A stretch of DNA of 33,177 bases from a virus. The number at the start of each line of letters is the position of its first letter. The first letter of the stretch is position 1. Where the stretch lies: IMG/VR virus record IMGVR_UViG_3300023115_000065, positions 1 through 33,177 of that record; one strand, written 5' to 3'. The notes under the pieces were generated by a model. The model saw only the letters and a list, made by a program, of their open reading frames with translations, was not told where the DNA came from and did not search any database. Positions 6,052-29,072 of the stretch are shown here, piece after piece. Both the position numbers and the translations under genes were made by a program.

Positions 6052-6088
6052 GAGAACGGCCCCCTAGTGGGGTCGTTCTCTTTTATTT
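6052..6088 (+). terminator. Rho-independent terminator
   Basis: GAGAACGGCCCC (6052-6063) pairs with GGGGTCGTTCTC (6069-6080) as a 12-bp stem with one G-U pair and a five-base loop, followed by TTTTATTT. It ends the rightward operon. In the minus direction no T-run follows, so leftward transcripts are probably not stopped by it. Confidence 0.92.
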
Positions 6089-6229: not shown

Positions 6230-6460
6230 TCAGTCGTCTTTCTTCATGCCTTTGGCACCGAAGTAGCCACCGATGATACCGATGACACCACCAAGAGCAG
6301 TCTGGACAAGAGTCATCACATCAGAAGAAACTTCAACTGCCTCACCAGTTGTCTGGGTCTCAATGGCAGCGACCACATAGTCGCCAACAATGGCAAACAG
6401 GATCGCCAGCATCACACCGACGGCCAGCACGTACATTGTCTTTTCTTTCATGTCGTTCAC
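6230..6460 (-). CDS. Small two-span membrane protein, holin-like
   Basis: A 76-residue protein with two hydrophobic segments, ~9-32 (YVLAVGVMLAILFAIVGDYV) and ~51-69 (VQTALGGVIGIIGGYFGAKG), joined by an acidic loop, and a charged KKDD end. GTG at 6460 overlaps the stop of the LPxTG gene by 4 bases; ATG at 6451 is an alternative start. The size, topology and place in the lysis region fit a holin or holin-like protein, but such short membrane proteins cannot be assigned with confidence. Confidence 0.65.
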   Translation of the reverse strand: MNDMKEKTMYVLAVGVMLAILFAIVGDYVVAAIETQTTGEAVEVSSDVMTLVQTALGGVIGIIGGYFGAKGMKKDD

Positions 6461-7914
6461 TTTGACACCGCCTTTCTGCGGATTGACGAGATTCCGATGA
6501 TAAGGATTCCAGCATTGATCATGATGATCGCCAAGAGGAATTTGCTATCAGTGGAGTTACCTGTTGATGGGAGTGTGCCGTGGTCATGGCTTGAATGATC
6601 GTGCTCTGTCGTGGTTGGAGCAACCTCAGGTGCTTCCGTCGTGGTTGGGGCCTCAGTCGTAGTTGGTGCCTCGGTTGTTGCCGGTACGGGAGCAGGCGCC
6701 TCAGTGGTGGGTGGCGCTTCGGTCGTCACTGGCACAGGGGCGGGCGCTTCGGTTGTGGTTGGCGCTTCGGTTGTGGTTGGCGCTTCGGTTGTGGTCGGAG
6801 CCTCGGTTGTGGTCGGAGCCTCAGTGGTCGTAGTTGGTGGGTTCCAAGACACCGTCGCAGACACCGTCTTTTCGACACCAGCGACCGTCGCGGTTGCCGT
6901 GTACACAGCGGAACCTTCACTCTCTGTTCGCACCGTGATCGTCGCAATTCCACTAGCGTCAGTGGTTGCCGTAAAGACCTGACCAGCATCAGGGCCAGAA
7001 CTCACCGTCACGGTCACCGTCACACCTTCTTGTGGCGTGCCATCGAGGGTTTGGGCTACCGCAGTGATCGTGAGATCTTCTCCAGCGTTTGGGTTCTCTG
7101 GAGAGATTGTCAACGTGAAAGAACTGGGAAGTGACACTTCGCCACCACCGATAGAAACAGCCACGATGGTTGACGATCCGGTCGGATACTCCCACTCGGC
7201 AAGAGTCTTCAAACCACCGAGATCCCCGGTGAAGTAGCCGTGCCAACAGGCGACAACGTCTGCGTTGGTGAGGCCAAAGTCGGTAGTGCCGTCAGTCGTG
7301 GCATCTGGTCCACCGTTGCATCCACCGTTGTTGAACACCGCATCTGGAAGAAGTGCGGTCAACCAGCCGTAAGTGTTGTAACTCGAAAACAAGCCGCCGC
7401 CAGAGTTGACAAAGTCAGCAAGTTTCTCAGCATTTGTCGTGAACTTCCCGTGGATGGCTGCGCTGCGCCCCCAGTCGTCGGGAATCCAAATCATACGTGG
7501 CGGGTCAGACACAATGTTTGTGGCAAAAAATGCGTCAATCTCTGCCTCTGTATTGAAAAACTCGGTCTCCGGAGCAGTCTCAAAAGAAGAAAGGAAGATA
7601 GGCAGTTGAGTAGCCCAGTCGCTCCCGCACCCGCCAACCGAAGAACCAACACCAAGAATGGCGATTTTTCCGTTGTTGCTGGGCATCAACGACTGCGAGT
7701 AAACACTATTTAGAACTTTTGAAATGTAGTTCTCTGTTCCCTCGCCATAAACCGCGTGACATGCTGGATCCATGCCGTCAAGAACGATTGGCCCACCACC
7801 GCTACCTGTAGCCAAAGCGATGTTACGAGGGGCAGACGGGAGTAGACCCAACCCCCCGATAAAGATTAGAGCAGCCCCAAAAATGTTGGCGAAATTTCTG
7901 CGTACCAATTTCAC
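6457..7914 (-). CDS. LPxTG-anchored surface protein with TTTEAP stalk
   Basis: A 485-residue secreted protein. Residues 1-36 are a signal peptide (basic start, hydrophobic core, LPSAP). Residues ~82-255 look like an alpha/beta domain (GKIAILGVG, PRMIWIPDDWG, LADFVNSGGGLFSSYN, ADVVACWHGYFTGD), somewhat like glutamine-amidotransferase-fold domains. Residues ~262-357 are an Ig-like domain of the bacterial Big type. Residues ~359-445 are TTTEAP repeats, then LPSTG at 448-452, a membrane span and IRRKAVSK: a complete sortase signal. GTG at 7914 overlaps the upstream stop by 4 bases. A host sortase would anchor it to the cell wall. Roles such as superinfection exclusion or adhesion are inference. 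Confidence 0.88.
   Translation of the reverse strand: MKLVRRNFANIFGAALIFIGGLGLLPSAPRNIALATGSGGGPIVLDGMDPACHAVYGEGTENYISKVLNSVYSQSLMPSNNGKIAILGVGSSVGGCGSDWATQLPIFLSSFETAPETEFFNTEAEIDAFFATNIVSDPPRMIWIPDDWGRSAAIHGKFTTNAEKLADFVNSGGGLFSSYNTYGWLTALLPDAVFNNGGCNGGPDATTDGTTDFGLTNADVVACWHGYFTGDLGGLKTLAEWEYPTGSSTIVAVSIGGGEVSLPSSFTLTISPENPNAGEDLTITAVAQTLDGTPQEGVTVTVTVSSGPDAGQVFTATTDASGIATITVRTESEGSAVYTATATVAGVEKTVSATVSWNPPTTTTEAPTTTEAPTTTEAPTTTEAPTTTEAPAPVPVTTEAPPTTEAPAPVPATTEAPTTTEAPTTTEAPEVAPTTTEHDHSSHDHGTLPSTGNSTDSKFLLAIIMINAGILIIGISSIRRKAVSK
6580..6840 (-). repeat. TTTEAP hexapeptide repeat tract
   Basis: Eighteen-base repeats coding for TTTEAP, with APVPVTTEAP variants, make the stalk of the surface protein. 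Open frames on the opposite strand over this tract are shadows of the repeat. Confidence 0.9.
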
Positions 7915-8165
7915 TTCGCCCCCGGCTTCTTTGTAGGCGCAGCGTTAAACACAGCATTCACTTCGTCTTCATCGAGTTCCCCGTCATTCAAGAATGCGCG
8001 AGCAAGACCCTCAACGACAGTGGCGACACCTGCAAGCCCGGCCACTGCCATGGACTGCATAATCGAGATTCCGGCAATCGCGCCAGCGCCAATCACACTT
8101 AGCGCAGAAGCCACAAATACTGCAATGATTCTCAGCCCAATGTTTTGCAGAAACTTGAGATTCAT
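7911..8165 (-). CDS. Small membrane protein, holin candidate
   Basis: An 84-residue protein with a hydrophobic region at ~8-52 (LRIIAVFVASALSVIGAGAI, then SMAVAGLAGVATVVEGLARA) that can form two spans, and an acidic C-terminus with EDEVNAVF and KKPGAK. GGGGGGA precedes the ATG at 8165. It lies directly downstream of the endolysin and of the gene at 8201. Proteins of this shape are common in actinophage lysis cassettes. Of the small membrane proteins here it is the best holin candidate together with the 8201 gene. Confidence 0.7.
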   Translation of the reverse strand: MNLKFLQNIGLRIIAVFVASALSVIGAGAIAGISIMQSMAVAGLAGVATVVEGLARAFLNDGELDEDEVNAVFNAAPTKKPGAK

Positions 8166-8200: not shown

Positions 8201-8434
8201 TTAGTCAAACGATCCTTTAGCATGCTCATTGATGTGATTGTCCAATTTCTCTTCAGCGCGATGAACGGACTCTTCAACGCGATCAATTGACTTTCCGAGA
8301 CTTTTCCCCATCATGTCAAGTTTCGTTGCCACAACACCGTGGTCACGCTTGTTCTCGCGGCGACCCTTTTCGGTGAGAGCAACCGCTACTGCACTTAGCG
8401 CTCCGATGCATGAAACAACAATTTCGACCATCAT
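8201..8434 (-). CDS. N-terminal membrane anchor with coiled coil (lysis cassette)
   Basis: A 77-residue protein with one membrane span at ~2-20 (VEIVVSCIGALSAVAVAL) and then a charged, heptad-like helix (MGKSLGKSIDRVEESVHRAEEKLDNHI). This resembles the small DUF2746-type proteins that neighbour endolysins in mycobacteriophages and the XhlA type of lysis protein. It starts 6 bases after the endolysin stop. It may assist holin or tether the lysin; function is inference. Confidence 0.7.
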   Translation of the reverse strand: MMVEIVVSCIGALSAVAVALTEKGRRENKRDHGVVATKLDMMGKSLGKSIDRVEESVHRAEEKLDNHINEHAKGSFD

Positions 8435-8440
8435 TGTCGG

Positions 8441-9430
8441 TCACCCAAACATGCATTTCCATGTTTTGGGGCCGACAACACCGTCGGCTGGCCCGCAACA
8501 AGCAGAATTTTTCTTCTGCCAATCCTTGACAGAGGCCTCGGTTTTTGCTCCAAAGTCGCCGTCGATGTGGGCGCCAATCTTTGACTGGACAGCCTTAACA
8601 GCGTCACCCTTCGAACCCTTCTTCAGAGATGAACCCGGATAAGCAGGCTTTTTGTCATCGACGGCTGGGAACATGACCCCCCAAGTCTTGGGCCCAACCA
8701 CACCATCGGCAGGGCCACACTCAGGATGCGCTTTCTGCCATTCAATGACTGCTGCCTTGGTTTTCGGCCCGAAATCACCGTCCTGCTTGGCGCCAATCGC
8801 GCCCTGCACCAACTTGACATGATCACCTTTGTCACCAAGGTTCACCGTCTCTCCGGGATACTGCAAACCGGCGAGACCAGAAATGTCAACAACTGAAGGC
8901 TGACTGGTTTTCGGAGCAGGAGGAGCGGCAGGAACGGCCGGCGCAGGCTTCGAACCTTTGATGCTCTCGAATGCGTCAATGAAGAACTGTTCATTATCTG
9001 CAACAGCGGGAGACACCTCCACATGGAACCAATCTCCGCCGGGAGCCGAACCAATCGTGGGTTTGTCATAGACCCTCCACGACTCGCGGTCACAGCGCCA
9101 CCCGCGACCATAGGGCTTGGGGTAGTAGTCGTGTAGTTCCATAATTTGGAACAACTCTGCATTTTCGGCGAGAAACTCGACAACCTTGACGGCCTGTTCG
9201 TAGTTCCCGTATCCGCCGTATTTACCTCCACGCCAAGAAATGTCGAAAGCGCGGCCCGTTCCGTGGACCGACCAAGCGTTGACCCGTGGGTTGTTCATCT
9301 TGCGAACACCCCATGAGCCATTACACCAGACACCCCCACCAAAGTATTCCTTTAGGAGTTTGTGAAATTTTTCGGTACCTGCACGCCTTCCAGCAGAGTT
9401 ACCATCCCAACCGATATATGGACGACCCAT
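8441..9430 (-). CDS. Endolysin: M15 peptidase plus two peptidoglycan-binding domains
   Basis: A 329-residue lysin. The N-terminal domain (~1-150) has the M15/VanY D-Ala-D-Ala peptidase signature: SVHGTGRAFDI gives zinc ligands His56 and Asp63, and GGDWFHVEV gives Asp133 as likely base and His136 as third ligand. After a Pro/Ala linker (~160-180) come two PG_binding_1 repeats (~193-255 and ~266-328), each ending in CGPADGVVGPKTW. AGGAG lies 6 bases before the ATG. It cleaves peptidoglycan stem or cross-link peptides at the end of infection. Downstream genes are small membrane proteins, the expected lysis neighbourhood. Confidence 0.93.
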   Translation of the reverse strand: MGRPYIGWDGNSAGRRAGTEKFHKLLKEYFGGGVWCNGSWGVRKMNNPRVNAWSVHGTGRAFDISWRGGKYGGYGNYEQAVKVVEFLAENAELFQIMELHDYYPKPYGRGWRCDRESWRVYDKPTIGSAPGGDWFHVEVSPAVADNEQFFIDAFESIKGSKPAPAVPAAPPAPKTSQPSVVDISGLAGLQYPGETVNLGDKGDHVKLVQGAIGAKQDGDFGPKTKAAVIEWQKAHPECGPADGVVGPKTWGVMFPAVDDKKPAYPGSSLKKGSKGDAVKAVQSKIGAHIDGDFGAKTEASVKDWQKKNSACCGPADGVVGPKTWKCMFG

Positions 9431-9472: not shown

Positions 9473-9652
9473 TTAATCGCCGTCGGTCTTGAAGAATAAT
9501 GCCCCAATTAGATGCATGACAAGAGATGCCCCACTAATCCAAAGCCCCCATTTAAGCGTGTCGCCAGACAATGTGATTAGAACAAGACCGGTGCCGCCGA
9601 GAGTCCAAGATAAAGCAAGAATCTCATTGCGCATATTTCTGAAAAACCCCAT
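9473..9652 (-). CDS. 59-residue two-span membrane protein
   Basis: A short frame between the Thr-rich secreted protein and the endolysin. It begins MGFFRNMRNEILALSW and has two hydrophobic segments (LGGTGLVLITLSG and WGLWISGASLVMHLIGALFF), then a charged KTDGD end. AGGGG precedes the ATG. Size and place directly upstream of the endolysin fit a holin or antiholin; four small membrane proteins in this cassette compete for that role. Confidence 0.7.
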   Translation of the reverse strand: MGFFRNMRNEILALSWTLGGTGLVLITLSGDTLKWGLWISGASLVMHLIGALFFKTDGD

Positions 9653-9660
9653 ATGGACCC

Positions 9661-11871
9661 CTATTTCTTGCGCTTTCTGCCGGTGCCGCTATCTGATGAA
9701 CCCCCGCCACCAGAAGGCGCCGTTCCGCCAGTTCCGCCAGAACTCGGCGAGGCAGGCTTAGGTGCCGGCATTGGTGCCGCCATTACAACCGCAGTCGCCG
9801 CAACAATTATACGTCTTTCAGCAACACTGACGGCAGAACCAGAAGGGACATATTCGTCACTTGCGCCAGAAAAAATGTTTACCTCGGCCTCGAAAACCTC
9901 TTTCACTTCGTCTGCTTCGTCGTTAAGAGCATTAGCAATAACACCGATCTGCTCATCGTCAAGTGTGTCGAAATTGTCGTCATTTACGAGTTTTTCGATT
10001 TGCTCAACAGTCACCTCTTCTTCAGCGATGATTGTGAACACCTCACCCGCAAGTTCGTCATCCTCGATTTTTGTTGTGATTGCGATGGCTTCCGCAATTT
10101 TTTCTTGATTTTGGCTGACGATTTCTGGTTGACGTACCGGATTTGTTGTGGTTGTTGTTGTGGTTGTTCTGGGAATTGTTGTTGTTGGTGCAACTATGAC
10201 CTCCGTTGTAGTACTAACTGTTGTTGTTGGACGTAGAGGCACAGTCGACGTCGTGGTCGTCGGCGGAAGTGTGCTCGTAGTTGTTGATGTAGTCGTCGTT
10301 GTAGTACTCGTAGAGGTTGTCGACGTACTCGTGGTTGGGGGAACGGTAGACGTCGTAGATGTCGTTGTTGAGGAAGTCGAGGTTGGGGGTGGTGGTGTAG
10401 TCGTTGATGGCGGCGCCTCCGTTGTTGTGGTCGGCGGCAACGTCGTTGTTGTCGTCGAAGTGGTTGTTGTGGTTGTTGTGGTTGTTGTAGTAGAAGTTGT
10501 CGTGGTGGTTGGGGGTGCTGGCTCCTCAACCGTCAAGGTCACTTGGGTAGACCACCCGGAGTACACCGCAAGAGTGTCGTTATCGGCGCGAACATCAAAG
10601 ACGTACTCTTCCCCGAGACCACCAGTGCTTTCAAAGAGACTGAATGGCAGCGTGTATTCGGTGTTTAAGGCGTTTTCGTCACCGACGTTTCCGGTTGCTA
10701 CACCCCAGCCTGCGTCGGGCGGGATTCTGAATGAGATTGCGTAACGCTCTGGCTGCACGTTGCCAGTGTTTGGTGCGTCCCAGTCAAGGTAGACGCCATC
10801 TGAGGTAATTTCCCCGGTCAGGTTCATTGGAGGGCCAATGGTCTGAGGGACAGTTGTCGTTGTGGTGCTAGTAGTTGTCGTAGTAGTGGTAGCAGGCGTT
10901 GCCCAAGTCCAAGTGTTCCGCACAAATCCACATAATGTTGAAGATGTCAAGCCTTGACAAGTGTCCCAAGAGGCGTCAGATGACCAGCCATCGGGAGGCG
11001 AATTGCTGTTGATTGAATTGAAGTACGGGTTAGTGAGCAGGTTAGTTAGGTCTGTCCATTCGGTGCTTCCGTCAAGTTTTGCCTTGAAAGCGACTTCTTT
11101 AATTTCGGTGCCGTAGTTGCCGCCCCAACCTTCGCCATCTTTTGCCCAGATGCGAATCTTCACGGTGTCCCACGATGTCGAATCTTGGACATTCGTAGAG
11201 GTAGACGCTGAGAACCAGAAGGAAGGAACCTCAACCCAAGATGTTGGAGCGGATGAAGTTATGTTGCCTTGCAGCAGGTTCCCAGCAGAGTCATATGCGG
11301 CATATTGTGTCGCAACGTAATCATTTACATCGTAGGAACGTTTAACGAGCGGCGTGACAACGATTGAATCAATCTCCCCTGCATAAGAAGAAACGTCAAT
11401 TGTTTGCTCAATGTACGCAGCGTCATACGAGAACCTGACACCGTTGTATGTGCTGAAGTTTGTTGCGAGAGTTAGATCGGTGACGAGTGTGTACTCTCCG
11501 CCGTCGAAGCCGTTTCCTCTTTGATTACAGCAGTACCCAGCATGGAGGCGATAGACGCCAGCATCCAGCGTGGTGTCAATTTTTGACGAAACGCACTGGT
11601 TTGTGCCGTTGTGGTTGCCGTCATCATTGCCAGTTATCAATGTGCCGGACAAGTCATATAGCCACAAGTACGGATCAGACGTTAGTTCCTCACAGGAACT
11701 GTTGGAGTTACCGTAGATAACAACATCAGTGGCGTCCTGCTCGATCTCGAAGTACCAGTCGGACTCCTCGGTGACCGTGTATGAGGACGCGTTCGCAGAG
11801 GCCGGTGTAAAGAAAACAAAAACCGCAGTAACCCAAAAGATCCACGAACCACGCCGATTCCGCCGGTTCAT
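9661..11871 (-). CDS. Secreted multidomain Thr-rich surface protein
   Basis: A 736-residue protein. A signal peptide (~1-29, cut near ANASS) precedes a sheet domain like the bacterial pre-peptidase C-terminal (PPC) domain (DPYLWLYDLSG, DAGVYRLHAGY, GGEYTLVT), a second domain of unknown type (~130-330), a fibronectin III domain (~345-452), a long mucin-like Thr/Ser/Pro tract (~453-595), and a helical C-terminal part with VTVEQIEKLVND and DDEQIGVIANAL, then AERRIIVAATAVVM and a Gly/Ser tail ending GRKRKK. The C-terminal part resembles secreted proteins of aquatic actinobacteria, suggesting host origin. Placed between tail-fibre and lysis genes, it may be a virion decoration or a host-surface protein made during infection; not decided. 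Confidence 0.85.
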   Translation of the reverse strand: MNRRNRRGSWIFWVTAVFVFFTPASANASSYTVTEESDWYFEIEQDATDVVIYGNSNSSCEELTSDPYLWLYDLSGTLITGNDDGNHNGTNQCVSSKIDTTLDAGVYRLHAGYCCNQRGNGFDGGEYTLVTDLTLATNFSTYNGVRFSYDAAYIEQTIDVSSYAGEIDSIVVTPLVKRSYDVNDYVATQYAAYDSAGNLLQGNITSSAPTSWVEVPSFWFSASTSTNVQDSTSWDTVKIRIWAKDGEGWGGNYGTEIKEVAFKAKLDGSTEWTDLTNLLTNPYFNSINSNSPPDGWSSDASWDTCQGLTSSTLCGFVRNTWTWATPATTTTTTTSTTTTTVPQTIGPPMNLTGEITSDGVYLDWDAPNTGNVQPERYAISFRIPPDAGWGVATGNVGDENALNTEYTLPFSLFESTGGLGEEYVFDVRADNDTLAVYSGWSTQVTLTVEEPAPPTTTTTSTTTTTTTTTTTSTTTTTLPPTTTTEAPPSTTTPPPPTSTSSTTTSTTSTVPPTTSTSTTSTSTTTTTTSTTTSTLPPTTTTSTVPLRPTTTVSTTTEVIVAPTTTIPRTTTTTTTTNPVRQPEIVSQNQEKIAEAIAITTKIEDDELAGEVFTIIAEEEVTVEQIEKLVNDDNFDTLDDEQIGVIANALNDEADEVKEVFEAEVNIFSGASDEYVPSGSAVSVAERRIIVAATAVVMAAPMPAPKPASPSSGGTGGTAPSGGGGSSDSGTGRKRKK
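10139..10520 (-). repeat. Low-complexity Thr-codon tract
   Basis: The plus strand is a run of GTT/GTA/GTC/GTG triplets, which on the minus strand are Thr codons broken by Ser and Pro. It encodes the mucin-like stalk of the 736-residue protein. The Val-rich plus-strand frame over it is a shadow. Confidence 0.9.
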
Positions 11872-12177: not shown

Positions 12178-12188
12178 ATTTTACACTA
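12178..12188 (-). promoter_or_regulatory. Candidate -10 element
   Basis: On the minus strand the site reads TAGTGTAAAAT. The same eleven bases occur at 23250-23260 before another minus-strand gene. TAAAAT fits the actinobacterial -10 form TANNNT. It overlaps the end of the fibre gene and precedes the 12159 gene. Confidence 0.45.
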
Positions 12189-13766
12189 GGAGTTCAACAG
12201 CACGTTGCTCGTATGAGCGACAAGGGTAATGTTTTGATCAATTGAGTCACAGATGGCCATGATCCCGCCAGTAGCGCCGACGCTTCCCTGATTGCCTGTT
12301 CCGCCAGTTCCTTTAAGCCCTCTTGCTCCCGCCGCACCAGCGTTTCCACGCGCACCAGCATTTCCACGTGTGCCAGCAGCACCGCCGGGTACAGCCGCAA
12401 ATTGGATATCTGGGTTTCGGGTTCCGGGAGTGGTGCTGTAGACCGCATGACCCGGAGTGATGTTTGCAGGGTTTTCCACTGTATGAGTATTGCTCGGGTT
12501 GTGAGCCCCTGCCACATGATGATTGTGATTGGGGTTGTAGTTGTAATACGTGTAATAGGAATAAATAGCACCGGGCGCATGCAACACGTAATGGTGATTG
12601 GACCGCTTCGCAGTGTAGTGAACATGCTGCTGAGGAACACCGGTTTCATCAACGGCGTGACCGGTATTGTGATGGTAATTGCTTCGTTGATGGTGTGAAT
12701 ACGGTGGGTGACGATTTTCGACTGTAATCGTTTCAGCGACCTGCGCTCCACCGTGTGCGTGGTGATGGTCTTGATTACCCGGAACCGTCACGTTGTGCTG
12801 CTGATAGTTCTGAACATCGGGGTTCGTGCCAACGTAGTTTGTGACAGGAGGGTTATGGTTGCCTTGGGCGTGGTGACCGGCATGACTGTTCCCAGCAGTT
12901 CCAGCGTTGCCAACGGTCCCAGCAGTTCCAGCAGTTCCAGCGTTGCCCGGATTTCCGTCAATCCCGTCAGCGCCTTTTTGTCCCAAATACCCGGTGCGGC
13001 CTTCACTCACAATTGAACCACTACCAACAATATGTTTAGCCACTACGAGAACAAGCCCGCCACCATCCCCACCTAAACCGGCAGCACCTGTAGCACCCGG
13101 ATTCCCCGGGTTCCCCGGATTACCATCAGTGCCGGGGTTGCCGGGATTTCCCGGATTCCCTGGGTTACCGGGGTTCGATGAATATTCCGGAGAATTGCTA
13201 TTGGCAGGGACGGTTCCACCCGCGTTACCAGCGCCACCCGCGCCACCTAGACCTGCTGTCCCACCGGCACCACCAGAGGTTCCTAATGTTCCAGCAACGT
13301 CGGTGCCCAAATTACCGTCATCAGCATTTTCGACACGGACAAAACCGTTTTGAGGATCAAACCTCCAGCCTGAACGAACAAAGTTCAAGTCCTTCATAAG
13401 TGACTGAGGAACCTGTGTTCCGCTTGAAGAAGAACCAAGAACAAAGGCTTTGGTGACGCCAAGTCCAACTGCCTCAATATCGTTGACGCGGCCAACAACA
13501 GTTCCGAGACTCACTGTCTCATCAATTGCTGATGTCATGCCAATTTTTCCACCAGTGTTGATAGTGAGAGTGTCTCGCACGAACACACGGAAACCGTTAG
13601 TGAAAAGCGTACAGTTTTGATTAATGGTCAAGTTCTCGTAATACATGTCTCGAGAAATGAGGTGCGAAGAAGTTGCCACCGTGTAGTTGCCGTCGCGACC
13701 GGAACCATAGATCGAGTCGTTACCCAAACGCTGTTCACGCTTGCGCGTCCGAATGACGCCAGCCAT
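12186..13766 (-). CDS. Collagen-like, His-rich tail-fibre protein
   Basis: A 526-residue protein. The N-terminal ~70 residues (IYGSGRDGNYTV, DMYYENLTI, TNGFRVFVRDTLTI) form a domain shared with the next fibre gene and seen in phage fibres. Gly-rich segments follow, then collagen-like Gly-X-Y runs at ~198-231, ~256-294 and ~461-500; the first has eight Asn-Pro-Gly triplets. Residues ~298-440 are rich in His and Tyr (DHHHAHGG, NHNHHVAG). The C-terminus is a short non-repetitive cap. It probably trimerises and sits at the tail tip. Pro before Gly is the position hydroxylated in collagens, and prolyl-hydroxylase-like genes lie upstream. Overlaps the previous stop as TAATG. Confidence 0.85.
   Translation of the reverse strand: MAGVIRTRKREQRLGNDSIYGSGRDGNYTVATSSHLISRDMYYENLTINQNCTLFTNGFRVFVRDTLTINTGGKIGMTSAIDETVSLGTVVGRVNDIEAVGLGVTKAFVLGSSSSGTQVPQSLMKDLNFVRSGWRFDPQNGFVRVENADDGNLGTDVAGTLGTSGGAGGTAGLGGAGGAGNAGGTVPANSNSPEYSSNPGNPGNPGNPGNPGTDGNPGNPGNPGATGAAGLGGDGGGLVLVVAKHIVGSGSIVSEGRTGYLGQKGADGIDGNPGNAGTAGTAGTVGNAGTAGNSHAGHHAQGNHNPPVTNYVGTNPDVQNYQQHNVTVPGNQDHHHAHGGAQVAETITVENRHPPYSHHQRSNYHHNTGHAVDETGVPQQHVHYTAKRSNHHYVLHAPGAIYSYYTYYNYNPNHNHHVAGAHNPSNTHTVENPANITPGHAVYSTTPGTRNPDIQFAAVPGGAAGTRGNAGARGNAGAAGARGLKGTGGTGNQGSVGATGGIMAICDSIDQNITLVAHTSNVLLNS
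13095..13175 (-). repeat. Asn-Pro-Gly collagen-like tract
   Basis: Nine-base repeats on the minus strand code for NPG, eight in number with one TDG interruption. Synonymous changes among Pro and Gly codons show it is kept as protein. Confidence 0.85.
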
Positions 13767-14470
13767 TAGTCAACCTCTAAATAGATAGTAGTGCCGTCAC
13801 TTCCAGAGCCCTGTCCTCCAGCATTCAAAATAGGGTTGGCGTACGGGTAGGCGTTGTTAATCGGTGAAGGAGTTGAGACAAGAATCACCACCCCGCCGCC
13901 AGCATCCGCTCCTCCCGTCGCCACGATTTGTGAACCATTACCGGCATCCGCAATGATGTAGCGAGCAGCAACAATAACCACTCCGCCACCCTCACCAGTT
14001 CCCCCTGCTCCACCTTGTAGGTAGAGGGGACCGTTGGTTGCTGCGGTGACTTGATAGCCGAGAACAGCCTGAGATGCGTAGTGTGTATAGTAAACAGATC
14101 CGCCGTCCGCTGTAGTGATCTGAGTGGCGGTAGCGCTGGCACCGTTGCCACCAAGACTATTTGTTGTTCCGGTTCCCGCTGCGCCGCCACCAAGAAGCGT
14201 TCCTGACCCGTCAAATCCACCGGGTAAACCAATGATCGCATTGTCATGCAGGGTCAAATTATTCTTAACAAACAAGCGGTAACCATTTGTATTCAGAACA
14301 GAGTTTGCGCCGACCTCAAGGTCGTAGTAAAACATGTCGCTCTGGAGGGTATGAGTAGTGGAAGCGTTAACGGTGTAACTTCCATCAACGCCGCTACCAT
14401 AAATCTCGTCAGCGGAATCTAAGAATTCTTCCAGCGGACTGGGTGCGTTCAGTCGTACGATGCCGCCCAT
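13766..14470 (-). CDS. Glycine-rich tail-fibre/tip protein
   Basis: A 234-residue protein with the same N-terminal domain as the collagen-like fibre (IYGSGVDGSYTV, SDMFYYDLEV, LNTNGYRLFVKNNLTL), followed by Gly-rich loops and short strands (GGAGGTGEGGGVVIVAARYI, DAGGGVVILVST) and a GQGSGSDGTTIYLEVD end. Such alternation of Gly-rich turns and hydrophobic strands is common in phage tail-tip adhesins. It lacks the collagen and His parts, so it looks like a shorter paralogue from duplication. It lies 5 bases after the 14476 gene and overlaps the next by one base. Confidence 0.8.
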   Translation of the reverse strand: MGGIVRLNAPSPLEEFLDSADEIYGSGVDGSYTVNASTTHTLQSDMFYYDLEVGANSVLNTNGYRLFVKNNLTLHDNAIIGLPGGFDGSGTLLGGGAAGTGTTNSLGGNGASATATQITTADGGSVYYTHYASQAVLGYQVTAATNGPLYLQGGAGGTGEGGGVVIVAARYIIADAGNGSQIVATGGADAGGGVVILVSTPSPINNAYPYANPILNAGGQGSGSDGTTIYLEVD

Positions 14471-16919: not shown

Positions 16920-17633
16920 TTATTCTTCGTTATCTAAAGACGGATCGTGGCTGCTCTCGTCAACATCAGTCATCTGGTCGAACGGCACAATTTCTTGACG
17001 GACGCATGTCATGAAGGTACTGATCATCCATTTATCTTCACTTATCGGGGTTGAACCAGAATGCGGGTGCGTCCAATTCGTTGGAAATAGAACGATGCGT
17101 CCTGCCCGGGCAGAAACTTTACAGTTGTGGGCGGGAAATGCTGTTTCGCCACCAACAGCAACATCGTTAAGGTAAATAACGGCACCCAAAACACGTGTGC
17201 CGACAGCGTTACCACCTTCCCATGGTGTTCCATCAACATGGGTTCTGTAGTAACCGACTGCTTTCCTGTATTTCTGAAGACGAAAGCCGGTGTCTTGAAT
17301 GCCGGGCCATGCCCACAGGTCGCTGAACTCATTAATGTATTTCCCTACAGCCGCAGCCAAGGATTCTCGGATTATCTCTTCGCAATACCCGAAGATGACT
17401 GGATCTACACCGGAGTTCAAAACTGCTTGAACGCTGAGGTTGCAATCCATTGAACTTTTCACTCGTGGATCCACCCCTCCAATCGTGGGACCCGGGGTGA
17501 AGAGCATCTCGTAGTAGGCCTTGCACTCGTCAATCAATTGAGTGCCGAGCGACTTTGGGAACATGTTGTCAGCAATCATGATTTGGGTGTCTTTATTATC
17601 TTTTGCCCAATTAAATGTTGGAAGTTTGGACAT
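16920..17633 (-). CDS. 2OG/Fe(II) oxygenase, prolyl-4-hydroxylase-like
   Basis: A 237-residue protein. The double-stranded beta-helix core shows LQKYRKAVGYYRTHVDG with His132 and Asp134, VIYLNDVAVGGETAFP, then AGRIVLFPTNWTHPHSG with His189 as distal ligand, and Lys201 in place of the usual Lys/Arg that binds 2-oxoglutarate. The YLND-GGET-FP order is that of prolyl-4-hydroxylases. It uses Fe(II), O2 and 2-oxoglutarate. Its start overlaps the halogenase end by 23 bases. It is the oxygenase gene nearest to the collagen-like fibre gene, which makes it the first candidate for proline hydroxylation there; that is inference. Confidence 0.85.
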   Translation of the reverse strand: MSKLPTFNWAKDNKDTQIMIADNMFPKSLGTQLIDECKAYYEMLFTPGPTIGGVDPRVKSSMDCNLSVQAVLNSGVDPVIFGYCEEIIRESLAAAVGKYINEFSDLWAWPGIQDTGFRLQKYRKAVGYYRTHVDGTPWEGGNAVGTRVLGAVIYLNDVAVGGETAFPAHNCKVSARAGRIVLFPTNWTHPHSGSTPISEDKWMISTFMTCVRQEIVPFDQMTDVDESSHDPSLDNEE

Positions 17634-19095
17634 TTCCGATACCTCTCATGAGTGCATCCCTGTGCGGGATCAATGTTGTGTTGCTGTTTTCAGCCTTGAT
17701 ACTAGCCAGTACCTCTTGTGCTCGCACAACTAGGTTTCTTGCTTGCAGGCTTCGCTGAGCACTATCGCTTTTAATCAAACCCTGCCCTTGTGCCACGAAT
17801 AGGAAATGATTTGCTGAAAATAGTTCGCAACCGTTGGTTGGGATGTCGACCTGTTCGAGGGGTCGATTTTTAACAATATCCAGAATGTATGTAAGAAAAT
17901 CTGGTTTTTTTCTCAATTTCTGATCTCGCCAAAGGTCGGTATCATCACGGTCCGATACGTAATGTAAACAAATCATCGTTAGTAGATTCTCCACCATCCG
18001 ATCGTATTTTTTGTTGTACGAATCTCGTGCCCATTGACGATCATTGGTGTAGTGCGGCAAATATGAAGTAAGAAGGAAACCTTGGAGTACCGATGCGCTG
18101 ATCGATGTTGCTTCGAGTGGTTCTACAAAGTTTGACGAAAGGCCAATTGCCACACAGTTGGCAACCCATGGTCTTTCTACTGTTCCGGGTGAAAAATCAA
18201 TAAATCGCGGATCGTCGATAATTCTGTCAAGGCGTTGCTCGAATTGTTTGTGGACTTGTTCTTGTGTAGCATACTCCGATCCGTAAACATAACCATTCCC
18301 GATACGCGACTGTGTAGGTATTTCCCAACGCCAACCAGCAGGCATTGCCTCAGCAATCGTGTAGCCACGTAAATCTTTTTCGTTTTCATGCTGGCTTTGA
18401 AAAACCATCGCAGAATCACAAGGGAGATAATCCGAAAACGAAACCCACTTTTGATTTTCAAGCGCGCTAATTATTTTCCGCTTGAATCCAGAGCAGTCAA
18501 TAACGAAGTCAGTTTCATAAGAACGCTTGGAACCCAAAAGGCTGGTGATTTCCCCAGATTCAGATATGTTCACATTGATGATTTCATCATCAGAAAACGA
18601 AACACCTATTGATTCGCAAACTCTACGGAGAAAAGAATTCAATTTGTGTGTGTCGAAATGTAGTTGGTTAGATTGCGCAAGCAACTGCTCAAGATCGTCA
18701 TTGTCTGCGACATAGCCATCAGGTAAACCGGGATGTGTAAATGCTGGAGTTAACTGCTTTCCTTGAGCAATTACAGAACTAAACAGGGAATACGCTGTGA
18801 AGTGTTCCGTCTGCCCTCCAGCAATACTGTGAAAATAATCAGGGACAGCCGTTGTCCAGTCAAGAAACCTGATACCAAACTTAAATGTTGCGTCAGTCTC
18901 TCTGATCACATCAGAGCGCTGTATGCCAACGAGAGTTTCAAACATTCTCCAATGTTCGGTACTTCCTTCACCAACCCCAATAATTCCTATCGTGTCAGAT
19001 GAAATAACCTCAACGTCATATAGCGGGAAGCAGGACTTCAGTAGAGCAGCGGAGATCATTCCGGCTGTGCCTGATCCAACTACATGTACTTTCAT
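17611..19095 (-). CDS. FAD-dependent tryptophan-halogenase-like enzyme
   Basis: A 494-residue flavin halogenase. It shows the FAD motif GSGTAG (7-12), GVGEGST (40-46), catalytic Lys72 in TFKFGIRFLDW, the WxWxIP signature as WRWEIP (255-260), and the NFVEPLE segment with Glu328. In PrnA the glutamate is followed by Ser; here it is Ala (EAT), a notable change. Such enzymes put Cl, Br or I on electron-rich substrates using reduced FAD. A separate flavin reductase is not visible. Viral halogenases are known from cyanophages. It lies 3 bases after the ligand-less oxygenase and overlaps the prolyl-hydroxylase-like gene. Substrate unknown. Confidence 0.9.
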   Translation of the reverse strand: MKVHVVGSGTAGMISAALLKSCFPLYDVEVISSDTIGIIGVGEGSTEHWRMFETLVGIQRSDVIRETDATFKFGIRFLDWTTAVPDYFHSIAGGQTEHFTAYSLFSSVIAQGKQLTPAFTHPGLPDGYVADNDDLEQLLAQSNQLHFDTHKLNSFLRRVCESIGVSFSDDEIINVNISESGEITSLLGSKRSYETDFVIDCSGFKRKIISALENQKWVSFSDYLPCDSAMVFQSQHENEKDLRGYTIAEAMPAGWRWEIPTQSRIGNGYVYGSEYATQEQVHKQFEQRLDRIIDDPRFIDFSPGTVERPWVANCVAIGLSSNFVEPLEATSISASVLQGFLLTSYLPHYTNDRQWARDSYNKKYDRMVENLLTMICLHYVSDRDDTDLWRDQKLRKKPDFLTYILDIVKNRPLEQVDIPTNGCELFSANHFLFVAQGQGLIKSDSAQRSLQARNLVVRAQEVLASIKAENSNTTLIPHRDALMRGIGNVQTSNI

Positions 19096-19098
19096 GGT

Positions 19099-19668
19099 TT
19101 AACCAAAAAAACCCTGCAAGACGAAACAGTGAGGAGATTCGAAGGAAAAAAGTTGCTCAAACGGGAATCCGGTAGGACCAACAAGCACATCTCCAATGTC
19201 CAAAACGAATTCCCTCTCAAGCAAAGGAAATGAGACGTTTGCCGATGAAGACAACGGTGCAAGGATCGAAAAAGGAAAACGTGGATCACCAGAAACTGGG
19301 CCTGAAGCAGGGGACCACTCCGCATTTTTCTCAAACAACATTATAGAATATAGGCTCTTTTCGACGTTGGGGTGGTCATAACGCATTCCATAATCGCGAA
19401 CACACTCAGAGACAAGTTCGTCAACAACAGAAAAAACTTCCTTGATGGGATTCAGTCTTTTGTTATCGCGGCTTTGTCCCACCGGATTCAAGTCGATCAA
19501 ACTTGAAGCAATTATTTCGTTACTCCCGGGATTGATCTTTCTTGGCTCGAGATATGACCAATCGCGTTTAACTTCTGCGTCTACCAAAGAAAAGAAGTCA
19601 CCGACAGAAATTCTATTACGGAAAATTGAAGTGAAATTGTATTCTTCCGGAACAAATGCGTGACTCAT
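19099..19668 (-). CDS. Ligand-less 2OG-oxygenase homologue (pseudoenzyme)
   Basis: A 189-residue protein of the same length as its upstream neighbour and alignable to it. Where the neighbour has AEYQPHFD this one has AEWSPASG, so the HxD iron ligands become Ala121 and Gly123. Where the neighbour has PSSTPFLHHATPV this one has PTGFPFEQLFSFE, losing the distal His, and the Lys for 2-oxoglutarate becomes Cys. Strand segments (SILAPLSSSANVSFP, FVLDIGDVLVGPTGFPFE, VLQGFF) remain. The frame is intact, so it is maintained, perhaps as a partner, carrier or substrate-binding subunit. One base separates it from its intact paralogue. Confidence 0.65.
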   Translation of the reverse strand: MSHAFVPEEYNFTSIFRNRISVGDFFSLVDAEVKRDWSYLEPRKINPGSNEIIASSLIDLNPVGQSRDNKRLNPIKEVFSVVDELVSECVRDYGMRYDHPNVEKSLYSIMLFEKNAEWSPASGPVSGDPRFPFSILAPLSSSANVSFPLLEREFVLDIGDVLVGPTGFPFEQLFSFESPHCFVLQGFFG

Positions 19669-19669
19669 A

Positions 19670-20239
19670 TCAGGCCAACCAAGTCACAAGGGAATATTTC
19701 ATGCCAGCATTGACTGGAGTTGCATGATGAAGAAATGGTGTACTTGAAGGGAAAATAACCACGGTTCCATTTTCTGCGGGAACGCTAAGACCAATGTGAC
19801 TAAAGTCAAGGTCCCCACCATCTTCAGGAGTGCTCAAGAAAGCGACAACGCTCAAAATACGTGGGACCGAAGGGTGAGCATCGAAATGAGGTTGATACTC
19901 TGCGCCGCTCCCATACTTATTAATACTCCAACCTTCATCACGTGTGAGTTCAAGACGAAAATGATCTCGATACTGATGAATCAAGGGATTAATATTGTTA
20001 TGAACAGCCTTGAAAGCAAGCGAAACTGGATGATCGTCATAACTCTCAAAGCCAATCATGTGGTTCAGTTCACATTGTTGATTTGAGCGAAAATTAGACA
20101 CAGTCCCAAATCCAGTCGATGCCTGTTTCCAGAACAGTGGAGAGTTTGGAATGTTCGCCCAATTTTCAACCTCTTCGACAAGGTCAGTTCCATCGAAGAT
20201 GTTTTTATGGATGCGAATAAATTTTGACTCATCAAGCAT
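19670..20239 (-). CDS. 2OG/Fe(II) oxygenase
   Basis: A 189-residue protein with INKYGSGAEYQPHFDAH (His118, Asp120), VVAFLSTPEDGGDLDF, GTVVIFPSSTPFLHHATPV (His171 or His172) and Lys181 in GMKYSLV. The order and spacing fit the prolyl-4-hydroxylase-like double-stranded beta-helix. Its start overlaps the preceding gene by 8 bases, and the next gene is a paralogue that has lost every ligand. A hetero-pair of active and inactive subunits is a possible reading. Confidence 0.85.
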   Translation of the reverse strand: MLDESKFIRIHKNIFDGTDLVEEVENWANIPNSPLFWKQASTGFGTVSNFRSNQQCELNHMIGFESYDDHPVSLAFKAVHNNINPLIHQYRDHFRLELTRDEGWSINKYGSGAEYQPHFDAHPSVPRILSVVAFLSTPEDGGDLDFSHIGLSVPAENGTVVIFPSSTPFLHHATPVNAGMKYSLVTWLA

Positions 20240-20660
20240 GAGGCTCTACAACTTTCACTTCAGCATCAGCAATAATCCCTGACTCATCGTGTAGTTCTAT
20301 GGTTGTAATCCCACAATCGACGAGACGGAAACGGAAAATAGCCTGATGTTTCGTGCTTCGCGTAGTGTGAGCAACAGTGAAACGATTTACTGGAGTGGCA
20401 ACTTCAACCCATGTCTCCCGACAGTCCATCCAATCGTCATTGTACGTTACTAATAGAAAACGGCCGGCCTTAATTGCCGTTGAAGAAAGTTGAAATGACT
20501 GCTCAACGGGAATCTCAAGAATTTGCACCAGAGTTTCATCAAACTCCAAGTCTTCCATTGCGCCGCTGCGGCCGACAACAATGGGTAGCGACCATTCAGT
20601 GGCAAGTTTTTCAGCCTCTGCCATCACTTCACTGGATGGGCAAAAAACTACCCTATCCAT
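20232..20660 (-). CDS. Uncharacterised protein in oxygenase operon
   Basis: A 142-residue protein, not recognised. Residues ~1-35 contain SSEVMAEAEKLATEWSLPIVV; the rest is strand-rich (SFQLSSTAIKAGRFLLVTYN, TWVEVATPVNRFTVAHT, QAIFRFRLVDCG, TTIELHDESG, DAEVKVVE), like an Ig or jelly-roll sandwich. It starts as TAATG on the coiled-coil gene stop and overlaps the oxygenase start by 8 bases, so production is coupled. It could be a carrier or binding partner of the neighbouring enzymes. Confidence 0.65.
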   Translation of the reverse strand: MDRVVFCPSSEVMAEAEKLATEWSLPIVVGRSGAMEDLEFDETLVQILEIPVEQSFQLSSTAIKAGRFLLVTYNDDWMDCRETWVEVATPVNRFTVAHTTRSTKHQAIFRFRLVDCGITTIELHDESGIIADAEVKVVEPHA

Positions 20661-20851
20661 TACTGTTCCTCTTCTGAGACCTCTGCCTCTTGTGCGGGAA
20701 ATGGAGGGACAGCAGGCGCTGTCAGTTTCTCGTTAAGGGCGTTCGCCTGCTTGAGCATTTGCCGGAGAATTGTGTTGTTTAAGGACAATTGTTTGTTTTG
20801 CTCAGAAAGATCTTCAATCACAGCCCTGAGGTCAACTTGTTCGTTACTCAT
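20660..20851 (-). CDS. Small coiled-coil protein
   Basis: A 63-residue protein; residues ~5-45 have a clear heptad pattern (VDLRAVIEDLSEQNKQL, then NNTILRQMLKQANALNEKL), followed by a Pro/Glu tail. It starts 9 bases after the PhyH-like gene stop and shares one base with the next start. Small coiled coils in fibre regions can act as trimerisation chaperones (as T4 gp57A does), but that is only an analogy. Confidence 0.7.
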   Translation of the reverse strand: MSNEQVDLRAVIEDLSEQNKQLSLNNTILRQMLKQANALNEKLTAPAVPPFPAQEAEVSEEEQ

Positions 20852-20860
20852 GGCTGGATC

Positions 20861-21619
20861 TTACCACTCAACTTCACGGAAATACATTACGCCGCCTTCA
20901 CCATGCCGGGCATAACGTTCAGTCTGCTTCTGCATCTCAGCCACACGTGTCTGATACTCCGGGAGTGGACCTTTGTGCAGGTCATGAGAGTAATTACCAC
21001 AGTAGTGCCCAATAACGGTCTTGCGTCGCTCTTTACCTGAGACTGGAGAACCACGATGGGCCAGTTGGCTATGCCAAATCAAAACATCACCCTTCTTGCC
21101 TAGAAAAGTGAAAACATCAGAGTTGCGCTTCTCTGCTTCTTCCAAAATCAACGTTTCCATCAATTCTTCGCCAATATTCGGCTGTTCGATAATTTCGCGA
21201 GTCATCAGCGGAACAAGATTGTCCCACTTGTGCGAACCCGGAATCACCTCGAAAGGACCCGACGAAGGATCGATGTCTTCTAAACAGACAAAAACACCGA
21301 TGTATGTGGACGCAGCGAATGGATCCTGTAAAACCGAATCTTTATGCCACTTGCATTCAGTCGACTTTTGCATCGTCATTTCAATGTGTAGTGCAGCAGC
21401 CATCTCAATCTGAGAGAAAGCGTCCTCAATCGATGGATGGCACAACACATCTTTGATTTCAACATGCTTGTTGTACTGCTCGGATCGACCCCAACCCGCC
21501 AAGGAGTCACCATGCTCTGCCTGATACATGTCAAGATATGCGTCAACGACATGCTCTGGGATCGATTTCTCCAAAATGAAGAAACCGTCACGTTCATACT
21601 TCTCAGCAACTGTTGTCAT
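20861..21619 (-). CDS. Phytanoyl-CoA dioxygenase-like (PhyH) oxygenase
   Basis: A 252-residue protein with the PhyH arrangement: N-terminal YERDGFFILEKSIPEHVVDAY cut here as YERDGFFILE, then KWHKDS (His92, Asp94), IDPSSGPFEVIPGSHKW, GDVLIWHSQLAHRGSP (His188) and Arg198 or Arg199 in KERRKTVIGHY. PhyH enzymes hydroxylate lipids and small molecules rather than peptides, so this member may have a different substrate from the prolyl-hydroxylase-like ones. It starts 2 bases after the TauD-like gene. Confidence 0.88.
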   Translation of the reverse strand: MTTVAEKYERDGFFILEKSIPEHVVDAYLDMYQAEHGDSLAGWGRSEQYNKHVEIKDVLCHPSIEDAFSQIEMAAALHIEMTMQKSTECKWHKDSVLQDPFAASTYIGVFVCLEDIDPSSGPFEVIPGSHKWDNLVPLMTREIIEQPNIGEELMETLILEEAEKRNSDVFTFLGKKGDVLIWHSQLAHRGSPVSGKERRKTVIGHYCGNYSHDLHKGPLPEYQTRVAEMQKQTERYARHGEGGVMYFREVEW

Positions 21620-21621
21620 GA

Positions 21622-22593
21622 TCAGAAACCTACCATTTGTTTATATTCTTCGCGCGAAAGATATTCCGTCGGCTCCACTTCGGAACCTTGAGCGAAAGTC
21701 CAGTACCCTTCAAATTTTCTTTGACCAGCCGAAAACCCACCCTTAACGCCATGAGCCATCCGGAACAAATCTGGAATAAGGAAATCGTTCTCTTGCCATT
21801 CCCACCAGATTTGGTTTTCCTTGACTGCGCAAATTTGACTTTGAACCCAGTCGATTATTTCACGGAAAAGAACATGTTCTTTCCCTGTCGGTAATCCATT
21901 CTGGACCAACAGCAGATAGTCCTGAACCCCCCAAGCGGCCGCACATGGACATAGTCGCAGAACTGGGAAGCCGAAATCTGGGTGATTCTCAATGGCTGGT
22001 CGAGCAAACGAAGAGACGTAACGGTCTCCGTCCAGAGTCCAGATCTTACGCACACCTTGATTAACTTTTCTCATGAATCGCGTTTTGAAATCATCTACTG
22101 ATTCCGGTTCGGTCGACCAATTTGGCATATGGATAATCGTTGCTTCCGAAAGAAGTTTTACGTAATGAGAAGGCATCTTTGAAATAAGGTTTGCCATGTC
22201 CACAAAGCCGGTCTGTCCAGTTCCAGCAGGAGCAGAGAAGGTGTCCATGTTCCATCCCGCAGCCCGCTGTGGTGACCTCAACGACGCGCCCTCGACATGC
22301 CACTCAATGATCGTGTCGTCCGGAGCGTTGCGCCCCTCGCCATTCAACTGTGTGACCATTGAGTCATACTGTTGGGTATAGTGCCAGTGAAAAACACCGT
22401 CATTCGCATACGGCGTCCACGATAAGGATGAGCCGATAGCGGTGAGGATTTGAAGAACATCTGACTCGGAGTATTCGACACCACGAAAAGCGAGTACGCC
22501 GGTTTTTTTGAATTGATCAATAAAAGCCGAAGGGTTATTTTGTATCTCTTCTACCGATACGCCTCGGAAGACAGAGAAGTTCGACTCATGCAT
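21622..22593 (-). CDS. TauD/TfdA-like oxygenase with HxE
   Basis: A 323-residue protein. The TauD-like core has KKTGVLAFRGV, then DTIIEWHVEGAS giving His99 and Glu101 (an HxE instead of HxD), and late DLFRMAHGVKGGFSAGQRKFEG with His281 and Arg292. The internal part (LRLCPCAAAW) has adjacent cysteines. ATG at 22593 is preferred because it overlaps the preceding gene end by 8 bases; the longer frame adds a stretch without coding support. HxE occurs in a minority of the superfamily and is compatible with iron binding. Confidence 0.82.
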   Translation of the reverse strand: MHESNFSVFRGVSVEEIQNNPSAFIDQFKKTGVLAFRGVEYSESDVLQILTAIGSSLSWTPYANDGVFHWHYTQQYDSMVTQLNGEGRNAPDDTIIEWHVEGASLRSPQRAAGWNMDTFSAPAGTGQTGFVDMANLISKMPSHYVKLLSEATIIHMPNWSTEPESVDDFKTRFMRKVNQGVRKIWTLDGDRYVSSFARPAIENHPDFGFPVLRLCPCAAAWGVQDYLLLVQNGLPTGKEHVLFREIIDWVQSQICAVKENQIWWEWQENDFLIPDLFRMAHGVKGGFSAGQRKFEGYWTFAQGSEVEPTEYLSREEYKQMVGF

Positions 22594-23242
22594 CGTAGGG
22601 CTCTGAGAGGAAATGCTCAATTGCAGCACGAATCCTCAGCAACGCCTCTTCTGGAGAATAAGCGTCCTTGCCCATTTCGAAGTTTGCAGGGAGTAGGCAC
22701 CCGTTGGTGAACCGAGCGCGACGTTTGCCGTCTCTGGAAACCACGAATTTTTCAAAGTTTCCGAGAATTGGACCATCGTCTACACCAAGTCGTTTGTACA
22801 GCGGGTGCGGTGCGAAGGTTTCGTCATCGTCATCACGGCTGTAACGCGAGGCCACAAGTTCAGTGAATGGCATTCGAACTCGGTAATGGGAGTATGCAAA
22901 GCGCTCACACTCCTCAGCGGTGCTTCGAGAATCTTTGAAGTCGCCATAACCAAACTCGCAATAGTCATTCGTAGGTACGCACACAATTTTAAATCCGAGA
23001 TGCGCATAGTCGTATTGGAGAACCTGCAAAATTGGGTACTGCATAGAGTTACCACATTCACCAGTGACATTGACAATCATCGTGACCTCCCCGTGCCGGT
23101 CGGCTAGGGCCTCTACATCACCGGTGACACTTTTTACGCTGATGTCATAGATGCTTTCCCCGTCAACAGTTGGACCCAAGTCGTGATCCCGCTGAAGAGT
23201 TTCAAGCATGTCGGAGGTGATTGCTGATTCCATGATCGTCAT
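22586..23242 (-). CDS. Glutathione-peroxidase-like protein
   Basis: A 218-residue thioredoxin-fold protein that follows glutathione peroxidase: MIVNVTGECGNSMQYPIL (peroxidatic Cys63), IVCVPTNDYCEFGYGDF where others have NQFG, RFAYSHYRVRMPFTELV, PHPLYKRLG and GNFEKFVVSRDGK where others have WNF. The classic Cys-Gln-Trp-Asn set is thus Cys63, Asp93, Gly161 and Asn162, so reactivity is likely altered. It is the first gene of the oxygenase operon. No ribosome site is seen; a -10-like TAAAAT ends 7 bases before ATG, suggesting a leaderless message. ATG at 23233 is an alternative start. Confidence 0.8.
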   Translation of the reverse strand: MTIMESAITSDMLETLQRDHDLGPTVDGESIYDISVKSVTGDVEALADRHGEVTMIVNVTGECGNSMQYPILQVLQYDYAHLGFKIVCVPTNDYCEFGYGDFKDSRSTAEECERFAYSHYRVRMPFTELVASRYSRDDDDETFAPHPLYKRLGVDDGPILGNFEKFVVSRDGKRRARFTNGCLLPANFEMGKDAYSPEEALLRIRAAIEHFLSEPYDA

Positions 23243-23249
23243 ATCGTCG

Positions 23250-23260
23250 ATTTTACACTA
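23250..23260 (-). promoter_or_regulatory. Candidate -10 element for leaderless start
   Basis: On the minus strand TAGTGTAAAAT, identical to 12178-12188. TAAAAT ends 7 bases before the ATG at 23242, the distance from a -10 to a transcription start, and no Shine-Dalgarno is present. Confidence 0.5.
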
Positions 23261-23329
23261 CTGTCATCAGGTGATTTCGAAACTCTGGTACACTTGAGAG
23301 CGGTAGTCCCACCACGATCGGAGTCTAAA
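23261..23329 (+). promoter_or_regulatory. Probable promoter of plus-strand island
   Basis: A divergent gap between the peroxidase-like gene and the rightward island. TACACT at 23289-23294 is -10-like, without a good -35. GGAG at 23320-23323 is the ribosome site for the first gene. Confidence 0.35.
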
Positions 23330-23560
23330 ATGGTTGCACTGAATAGTGTTTCTGACGAGTATAAGGCAGCACAAAAAGCCGAAGTCATTGCTACTCTCGA
23401 ATCTGCTGTTTGGGCTTCTGCCGTGGCCTGCGGTGTGGATCCTGCCGAATTGACGGCAGACTGGCAAATTCCTGCCGAAGATACCTTGCCGCCTCCGGGC
23501 GACCTTGAAGATCGCCTGTTTAGTCTTATCACCCGTCTTGAAGGGGCACGAGGAGTCTGA
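23330..23560 (+). CDS. Small GVD-motif protein, tandem copy 1
   Basis: A 76-residue protein: KAEVIATLESAVWASAVACGVDPAEL in two helices, ADWQIPAEDTLPPPG loop, then LEDRLFSLITRLEGA. The start at 23330 has GGAGTC seven bases upstream; the same GGAGTC stands before the next copy. It aligns with the two following genes and with the 12159 protein. Acidic, helical, no known domain. It opens the rightward island. Confidence 0.7.
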   Translation: MVALNSVSDEYKAAQKAEVIATLESAVWASAVACGVDPAELTADWQIPAEDTLPPPGDLEDRLFSLITRLEGARGV

Positions 23561-23561
23561 A

Positions 23562-23774
23562 ATGGTTTTTAGCGACGGATTTGACGCAGCAGCAAAGGCT
23601 GAAGCGAAGGCAGAAGCAATCAGGATGATTGAAGAAAAAGTGTACACGTACGGCCTTATTTGTGGTCTAGACGTGTCCTCACTGCCAGCAGACTGGACGC
23701 CAACTGAGGGCGTAGACTACGAAGAGGCACTCAAAGTGCTTATTGATCGACTAGCATGGGCTAACACTCTCTAG
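23562..23774 (+). CDS. Small GVD-motif protein, tandem copy 2
   Basis: A 70-residue protein: FDAAAKAEAKAEAIRMIEEK, then YTYGLICGLDVSSLPADW, a short loop and ALKVLIDRLAWANTL. It has the same helix - GLD - ADW - helix plan as copy 1, one base after its stop and with the same ribosome site. The longer upstream frame overlaps copy 1 and is rejected. Confidence 0.7.
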   Translation: MVFSDGFDAAAKAEAKAEAIRMIEEKVYTYGLICGLDVSSLPADWTPTEGVDYEEALKVLIDRLAWANTL

Positions 23775-23791
23775 TCTGACGGAGGAACGTA

Positions 23792-24228: not shown

Positions 24229-24229
24229 A

Positions 24230-25334: not shown

Positions 25335-25346
25335 GAGGTAAATAAG

Positions 25347-27579: not shown

Positions 27580-27580
27580 G

Positions 27581-28396: not shown

Positions 28397-28398
28397 GT

Positions 28399-29070: not shown

Positions 29071-29072
29071 TT

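Follow-up and report, generated by a model that had tools for sequence, protein, structure and literature searches.

A predicted sortase-anchored surface protein in the lysis cassette of a family of apparently lytic freshwater actinophages

The window analysed here is the whole stretch of 33,177 bases of a viral record. On its minus strand it carries a gene for an LPXTG surface protein, which lies between small membrane-protein genes and close to an endolysin gene and to a second gene for a surface protein. The features of this region, with the elements of the LPXTG protein given under its gene, are as follows.

6230..6460 (-): small membrane protein, with closest relatives in L002, L005 and L006
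6457..7914 (-): LPXTG surface-protein gene, 485 aa, GTG start
7807..7914 (-): predicted signal peptide, residues 1 to about 36 (from the sequence; hydrophobic N terminus)
7132..7791 (-): domain 1, alpha/beta, 220 residues (42-261); predicted class I GATase-like fold lacking the nucleophile (AlphaFold, fold search, conservation)
6844..7131 (-): Ig-like domain of the Big_1/invasin type (Pfam, below cut-off; fold match to invasin)
6604..6843 (-): Thr/Pro stalk of TTTEAP repeats, residues about 358-437 (from the sequence; tandem repeats)
6577..6603 (-): His motif HDHSSHDHG, residues 438-446, in 42/48 relatives
6559..6573 (-): LPSTG sorting motif, residues 448-452, with LPx[TSA]G in 48/48 relatives and strict LPxTG in 45
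6481-6540 (-): membrane span, residues 459-478, in 48/48 relatives
6460-6480 (-): basic tail RRKAVSK, with a basic tail in 44/48 relatives
7911..8165 (-): holin-like gene, 84 aa (phrog_443, E = 1e-6; Pfam r1t holin, 0.016)
8201..8434 (-): tm77, a recurrent neighbour; small protein, one predicted membrane span, C-terminal part charged
8441..9430 (-): endolysin with two PG_binding_1 domains (Pfam and PHROG)
9473..9652 (-): 59-aa ORF for a membrane protein, homologous to the membrane piece at the C terminus of other versions of the second surface protein
9661..11871 (-): second secreted surface protein, with a Thr-rich stalk and a conserved C-terminal domain

An earlier note, made from the sequence alone, had described the product of 6457-7914 as a signal peptide, a globular and an Ig-like domain, a TTTEAP stalk, LPSTG, a membrane span and a basic tail, and every one of these elements is present in the 485-aa ORF. 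It had overlooked the histidine-rich element HDHSSHDHG, which stands immediately N-terminal of LPSTG. At the DNA level the stalk is an 18-bp tandem repeat. The LPXTG models place the window protein slightly under the cut-off of NCBIfam (TIGR01167, 15.6 against 15.9 bits) and also under that of Pfam (PF00746, 15.4 against 20), and the best relative in the family matches the LPXTG model at E = 7e-5.

The LPXTG gene overlaps both of its neighbours by 4 bp, the holin-like gene at 7911-7914 and the downstream small membrane-protein gene at 6457-6460. Overlaps on both sides show that it belongs to an operon and is neither an insertion nor an assembly join. The note had singled out a join with host sequence as the artefact that would undo its reading, and the resemblance of the protein to a bacterial surface protein is what one would expect if host DNA had been fused to a phage contig. 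Such a join is ruled out by the two overlaps and by the fact that dozens of viral contigs, up to 194 kb long, share the arrangement; nor did we find a close homologue in 84,980 genomes, and the probability left to this artefact is negligible. The holin-like protein also matches phrog_26427 (E = 3e-22), labelled 'nuclease', which seems mistaken for a membrane protein of 84 aa. The N-terminal part of the endolysin, where Pfam gives no match, contains an HxxxxxxD...H pattern that looks like that of an M15-type peptidase. On the other strand, a strong terminator-like hairpin (6052-6080, plus strand) ends the genes that converge on the lysis operon.

Searches of viral contigs with the single protein as query retrieved 32 relatives, and a scan with the alignment of domain 1 revealed at least 103 viral stretches encoding relatives, of which the best 80 were retained. 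IMG/VR contains near-identical contigs, and for this reason we counted each distinct sequence once. Every one of the 48 distinct complete members has an LPx[T/S/A]G motif with a membrane span after it, and in 45 the motif is a strict LPxTG; 44 have a basic tail, and 42 have HxHxxHxH directly before the sorting motif. A hydrophobic N-terminal stretch, identified by hydropathy only, is found in 45/45 relatives with a complete N terminus. Of the other ORFs in the same loci, about 1,130 with a length of 100 aa or more, none combines LPx[TSA]G with a membrane span, and the sorting signal is thus not a product of chance. Domain 1 has a dN/dS of 0.03-0.06 relative to its three nearest relatives; these values are approximate because synonymous sites are close to saturation, but the selection on the domain is clearly purifying. 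A search of viral contigs for the His motif followed by LPxTG returned 16 stretches; 14 come from contigs in which the family had already been detected, and the remaining two also encode members of it. That the motif, HDHSxHxHG, might bind metal is a guess. The stalk region looks exchangeable as judged from the members compared: in L006 (7932-9494) a different domain of roughly 90 residues replaces most of the Thr stalk, and L057 (7851-9515) has an unusual insert ahead of the His motif.

A tblastn search of the protein against 50,697 GenBank phages gave no match. The UniProt entry A0A6J5NDS9, from an uncultured Caudovirales phage, is a family member by its predicted structure (TMq 0.93, 57% identity); it is entered as a fragment under the title 'Big-1 domain-containing protein', with no function given. 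We found no report of this LPXTG family in the literature searched, the coverage of which was incomplete.

The lysis setting is shared by most relatives. Of 47 distinct loci, 35 have a holin-like gene at most 4 kb from the family gene; the corresponding numbers are 33 for the second surface protein and 32 each for an endolysin-like gene and for tm77. All of these are lower bounds because several contigs end early. The same set of genes recurs among relatives in differing order, and the 4-bp overlap with the holin-like gene is also present in seven distinct relatives. The position between small membrane proteins and the endolysin, as first described for the window, is therefore borne out by the neighbours there and recurs in most of the family. 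In four loci (L070, L084, L091, L105) the endolysin-like match is more distant and on the opposite strand, which makes the link to lysis common, not universal.

We then considered where the protein would be displayed. No Pfam sortase was found in 20 family records of up to 194 kb, which implies that a host sortase would have to act on the LPXTG protein. Sortases are present in 72 of 80 genomes of the actinobacterial class in which the remote homologues described below occur. Display by the host sortase is the natural reading because the sorting signal is family-wide in phages without a sortase of their own. On these grounds, the protein is very probably displayed on the host wall, and what the earlier note had expected in this respect is now strongly supported as a prediction by the family-wide signal, the lack of a recognisable phage sortase and the frequency of sortases in the homologues' class. 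One might instead place the protein in or on the virion, with an incidental sorting signal, since tail-fibre-like genes are nearby (12186-14470) and the virion proteins of phages often contain Ig-like domains. This family, however, keeps both a signal peptide and a complete sorting signal, whereas proteins of the virion normally stay in the cytoplasm, and we regard a virion component as very unlikely.

The predicted host group is freshwater actinobacteria. The window encodes a WhiB protein (Pfam, E = 1e-14), and WhiB is a marker for assigning phages to actinobacteria (PMC6802176, PMC10914622). A search for a host with a WhiB-like DNA pattern gave 14 scattered matches and no host. The phages of the family are apparently lytic, as judged from their gene content: no tyrosine integrase was found in the 20 family records of up to 194 kb, which are possibly incomplete and were searched for the tyrosine type only. 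Without such an integrase, lysogenic conversion is unlikely and a role in lytic growth is indicated.

Phage-borne LPXTG proteins are known as prophage cargo. The gene for SasX lies on a Phi-SP-beta-like prophage of Staphylococcus aureus (PMC10232760, PMC6400870), and SasX is, as the protein studied here is predicted to be, a phage-borne, cell-wall-anchored LPXTG protein displayed by the host sortase. SasX helps the living host, whereas the present gene is in a lysis cassette of phages without a recognised integrase; the two were compared by description only. This precedent (PMC10232760) is what speaks for cargo that benefits a living lysogen. The coupling of the gene to lysis genes in phages that look lytic makes such a benefit unlikely, and a scan of 84,980 genomes with conserved peptides found no close copy; together with the integrase result, this makes lysogenic cargo highly improbable.

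We modelled the head of the protein with AlphaFold. Domain 1 was poorly predicted from 16 sequences, and an alignment of 48 was used instead (pLDDT 82.8, pTM 0.84). Nearly all of the top 24 structural matches of this model are class I GATase-like proteins (Z at most 8.8); peptidase E, ThuA-like proteins and the GIFT domain of IFT52 match the predicted fold with Z from 8.8 to 6.9. Foldseek against the PDB returned nothing at E <= 0.001, the sequence profile of the domain gave only a chance match in the PDB, and Pfam gave no meaningful family match for the 48 sequences. Class I GATase-like enzymes have a catalytic Cys or Ser at the nucleophile elbow, whereas domain 1 has neither residue conserved at this place (domain positions 136-140) in the 48 sequences. 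The catalytic residue is not defining for non-enzymatic members of the fold. Four other residues, D8, H12, W143 and H184 in domain numbering, do not vary within the phage set and also occur in both aligned cellular sequences, which suggests that domain 1 may have a ligand- or metal-binding site. The strong conservation of these residues, the fold similarity to peptidase E and ThuA-like proteins and the close coupling to lysis genes could also fit a wall-fixed enzyme or lysis helper, in which domain 1 would have a polymer of the wall or surface layer as its substrate and would aid the release of progeny together with the endolysin. Given an elbow without a nucleophile, fold matches as weak as those above and the oddity of covalent fixation for a lysis tool, we find this enzymatic role rather improbable. 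The Ig domain matches Pfam Big_1 at E = 3e-6, below the curated cut-off, and a Big_1 match at E <= 0.1 occurs in 15 of 16 members. Its model superposes on invasin with Z = 12.9 (rmsd 2.0, 89 aligned). The predicted fold is similar to that of the invasin/intimin Ig domains; here it forms a single module behind domain 1, with no autotransporter barrel. PADLOC gave no defence match for the protein.

When 396 genomes of the actinobacterial phylum were searched with the profile of domain 1, two had remote homologues (E = 3e-19 and 4e-13); 296 genomes of the class of one of these homologues gave one more strong and one weak match. The strong homologues are secreted multi-domain proteins. In the three secreted actinobacterial surface proteins L124, L125 and L126, domain 1 has about 30% identity to that of the window. 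L125 has domain 1, Big_1, fn3 repeats and CW_binding_2 (CWB2), so at least one cellular domain 1-Ig protein is predicted to be wall-bound through CWB2; in L126, Ig-like domains come after domain 1, and the junction resembles the one in the phage protein. The architectures of the three differ from that of the phage protein, with no combination of Thr stalk, His motif and LPXTG seen. When the 84,980 genomes were scanned with conserved domain 1 peptides, 36 stretches fitted a pattern and none was confirmed. The pattern of His motif and LPxTG is absent from the 296 genomes of the class with remote homologues, and the copying of this element from that class is thus not supported. The proposal that the gene was taken from a host consequently holds for the domains only, an alpha/beta-Ig module shared with rare secreted actinobacterial proteins, and fails for recent cargo; the search for host homologues that the note had called for gave remote relatives among actinobacterial surface proteins and no close copy. 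The latter points to an old, phage-maintained family, and the domain 1-Ig head appears to be an old module common to the phage protein and to actinobacterial surface proteins.

These relatives bear on another possible function. The cellular homologues are large multi-domain adhesin-like proteins, and the long stalked architecture with an invasin-type Ig domain would suit an adhesin whose anchored head attaches infected cells to one another, to particles or to fresh hosts, which would free progeny near new targets. The prophage protein SasX, for its part, promotes aggregation (PMC6400870). Expression just before lysis would leave little time for adhesion, there is no known ligand and architecture alone is no proof of adhesion. 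We consider an adhesin unlikely.

The second surface protein (9661-11871) has a variable front, and its gene is upstream of the LPXTG gene in most relatives. Of the 296 genomes of the class with remote homologues, four have matches to the profile of its C-terminal domain (E down to 3e-34), while 94 genomes from a different class gave none. Three of these four genomic counterparts were examined in their surroundings, which look chromosomal, with metabolic genes as neighbours in two. A membrane piece like that encoded at 9473-9652 is fused in one chain with the surface protein in some relatives and actinobacterial genomes and split from it in others. Since both 6457-7914 and 9661-11871 have cellular homologues, the phage has a pair of surface proteins that are related to actinobacterial ones.

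In the explanation that we prefer as a whole, to which we give an even chance, the LPXTG protein would be a late, sortase-anchored surface protein that masks the infected cell. It would be made late, together with the holin and the endolysin, exported by the Sec pathway of the host and joined to the host peptidoglycan by the host's own sortase. The Thr stalk would keep the domain 1-Ig head at a distance from the wall, where the head may bind to, or cover, some conserved component of the infected cell's surface; the masking would then keep rival phages and the phage's own progeny from adsorbing to doomed cells or to wall debris. The sorting signal (48/48 against 0/about 1,130), the purifying selection, the overlaps with the holin-like gene, the secreted cellular homologues of domain 1-Ig and the adjoining second surface protein of host type all favour this explanation; a C terminus under the LPXTG cut-offs of NCBIfam and Pfam and the four loci with distant, opposite-strand endolysin-like matches weigh against it. 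The specific function, blocking the adsorption of rivals or progeny, is a tentative proposal that we favour over adhesion and over a wall-fixed enzyme. Its main counterpoint is the high conservation of domain 1, since a simple arms-race exclusion protein would be expected to change fast. Moreover, the early phase of infection is when exclusion usually pays, and this gene is grouped with late genes. A precedent for a phage surface protein that stops adsorption is Llp of phage T5 (PMC9586334). Like the LPXTG protein, the superinfection exclusion proteins T5 Llp and Cor are phage proteins in the host envelope, and the loss of adsorption is the same as that proposed here (PMC9586334); unlike it, they are small periplasmic lipoproteins of Gram-negative hosts and have no domain in common with it.

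The presence of the same gene in more than a hundred related viral fragments suggests that these viruses re-decorate infected cells. It is quite conceivable, at somewhat less than even chances, that freshwater actinophages of a large, apparently lytic group give their host a new surface late in infection, using two proteins built of host-type parts, one fixed by sortase and the other held by a membrane piece, and that this is a regular element of the lysis programme. What is new is that many apparently lytic actinophages have, within the lysis cassette, a conserved predicted sortase substrate with an uncharacterised head and a His motif. If the proposal is true, viruses routinely employ the host sortase to alter the surface of the infected cell. 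It would provide a testable handle on the competition of abundant, mostly uncultured freshwater actinobacteria and their phages, and one on the ligand of a widespread, uncharacterised surface domain.

Other genes of the window merit mention. The gene at 12186-13766 (minus strand) encodes a collagen-like protein of the tail-fibre type in which Gly-Asn-Pro and Gly-rich repeats are numerous. Genes for 2OG-Fe(II) oxygenases from several Pfam families are densely clustered at 16920-30638, together with one for a tryptophan halogenase (17611-19095, E = 2e-97), a chemistry that is unusual for a phage.
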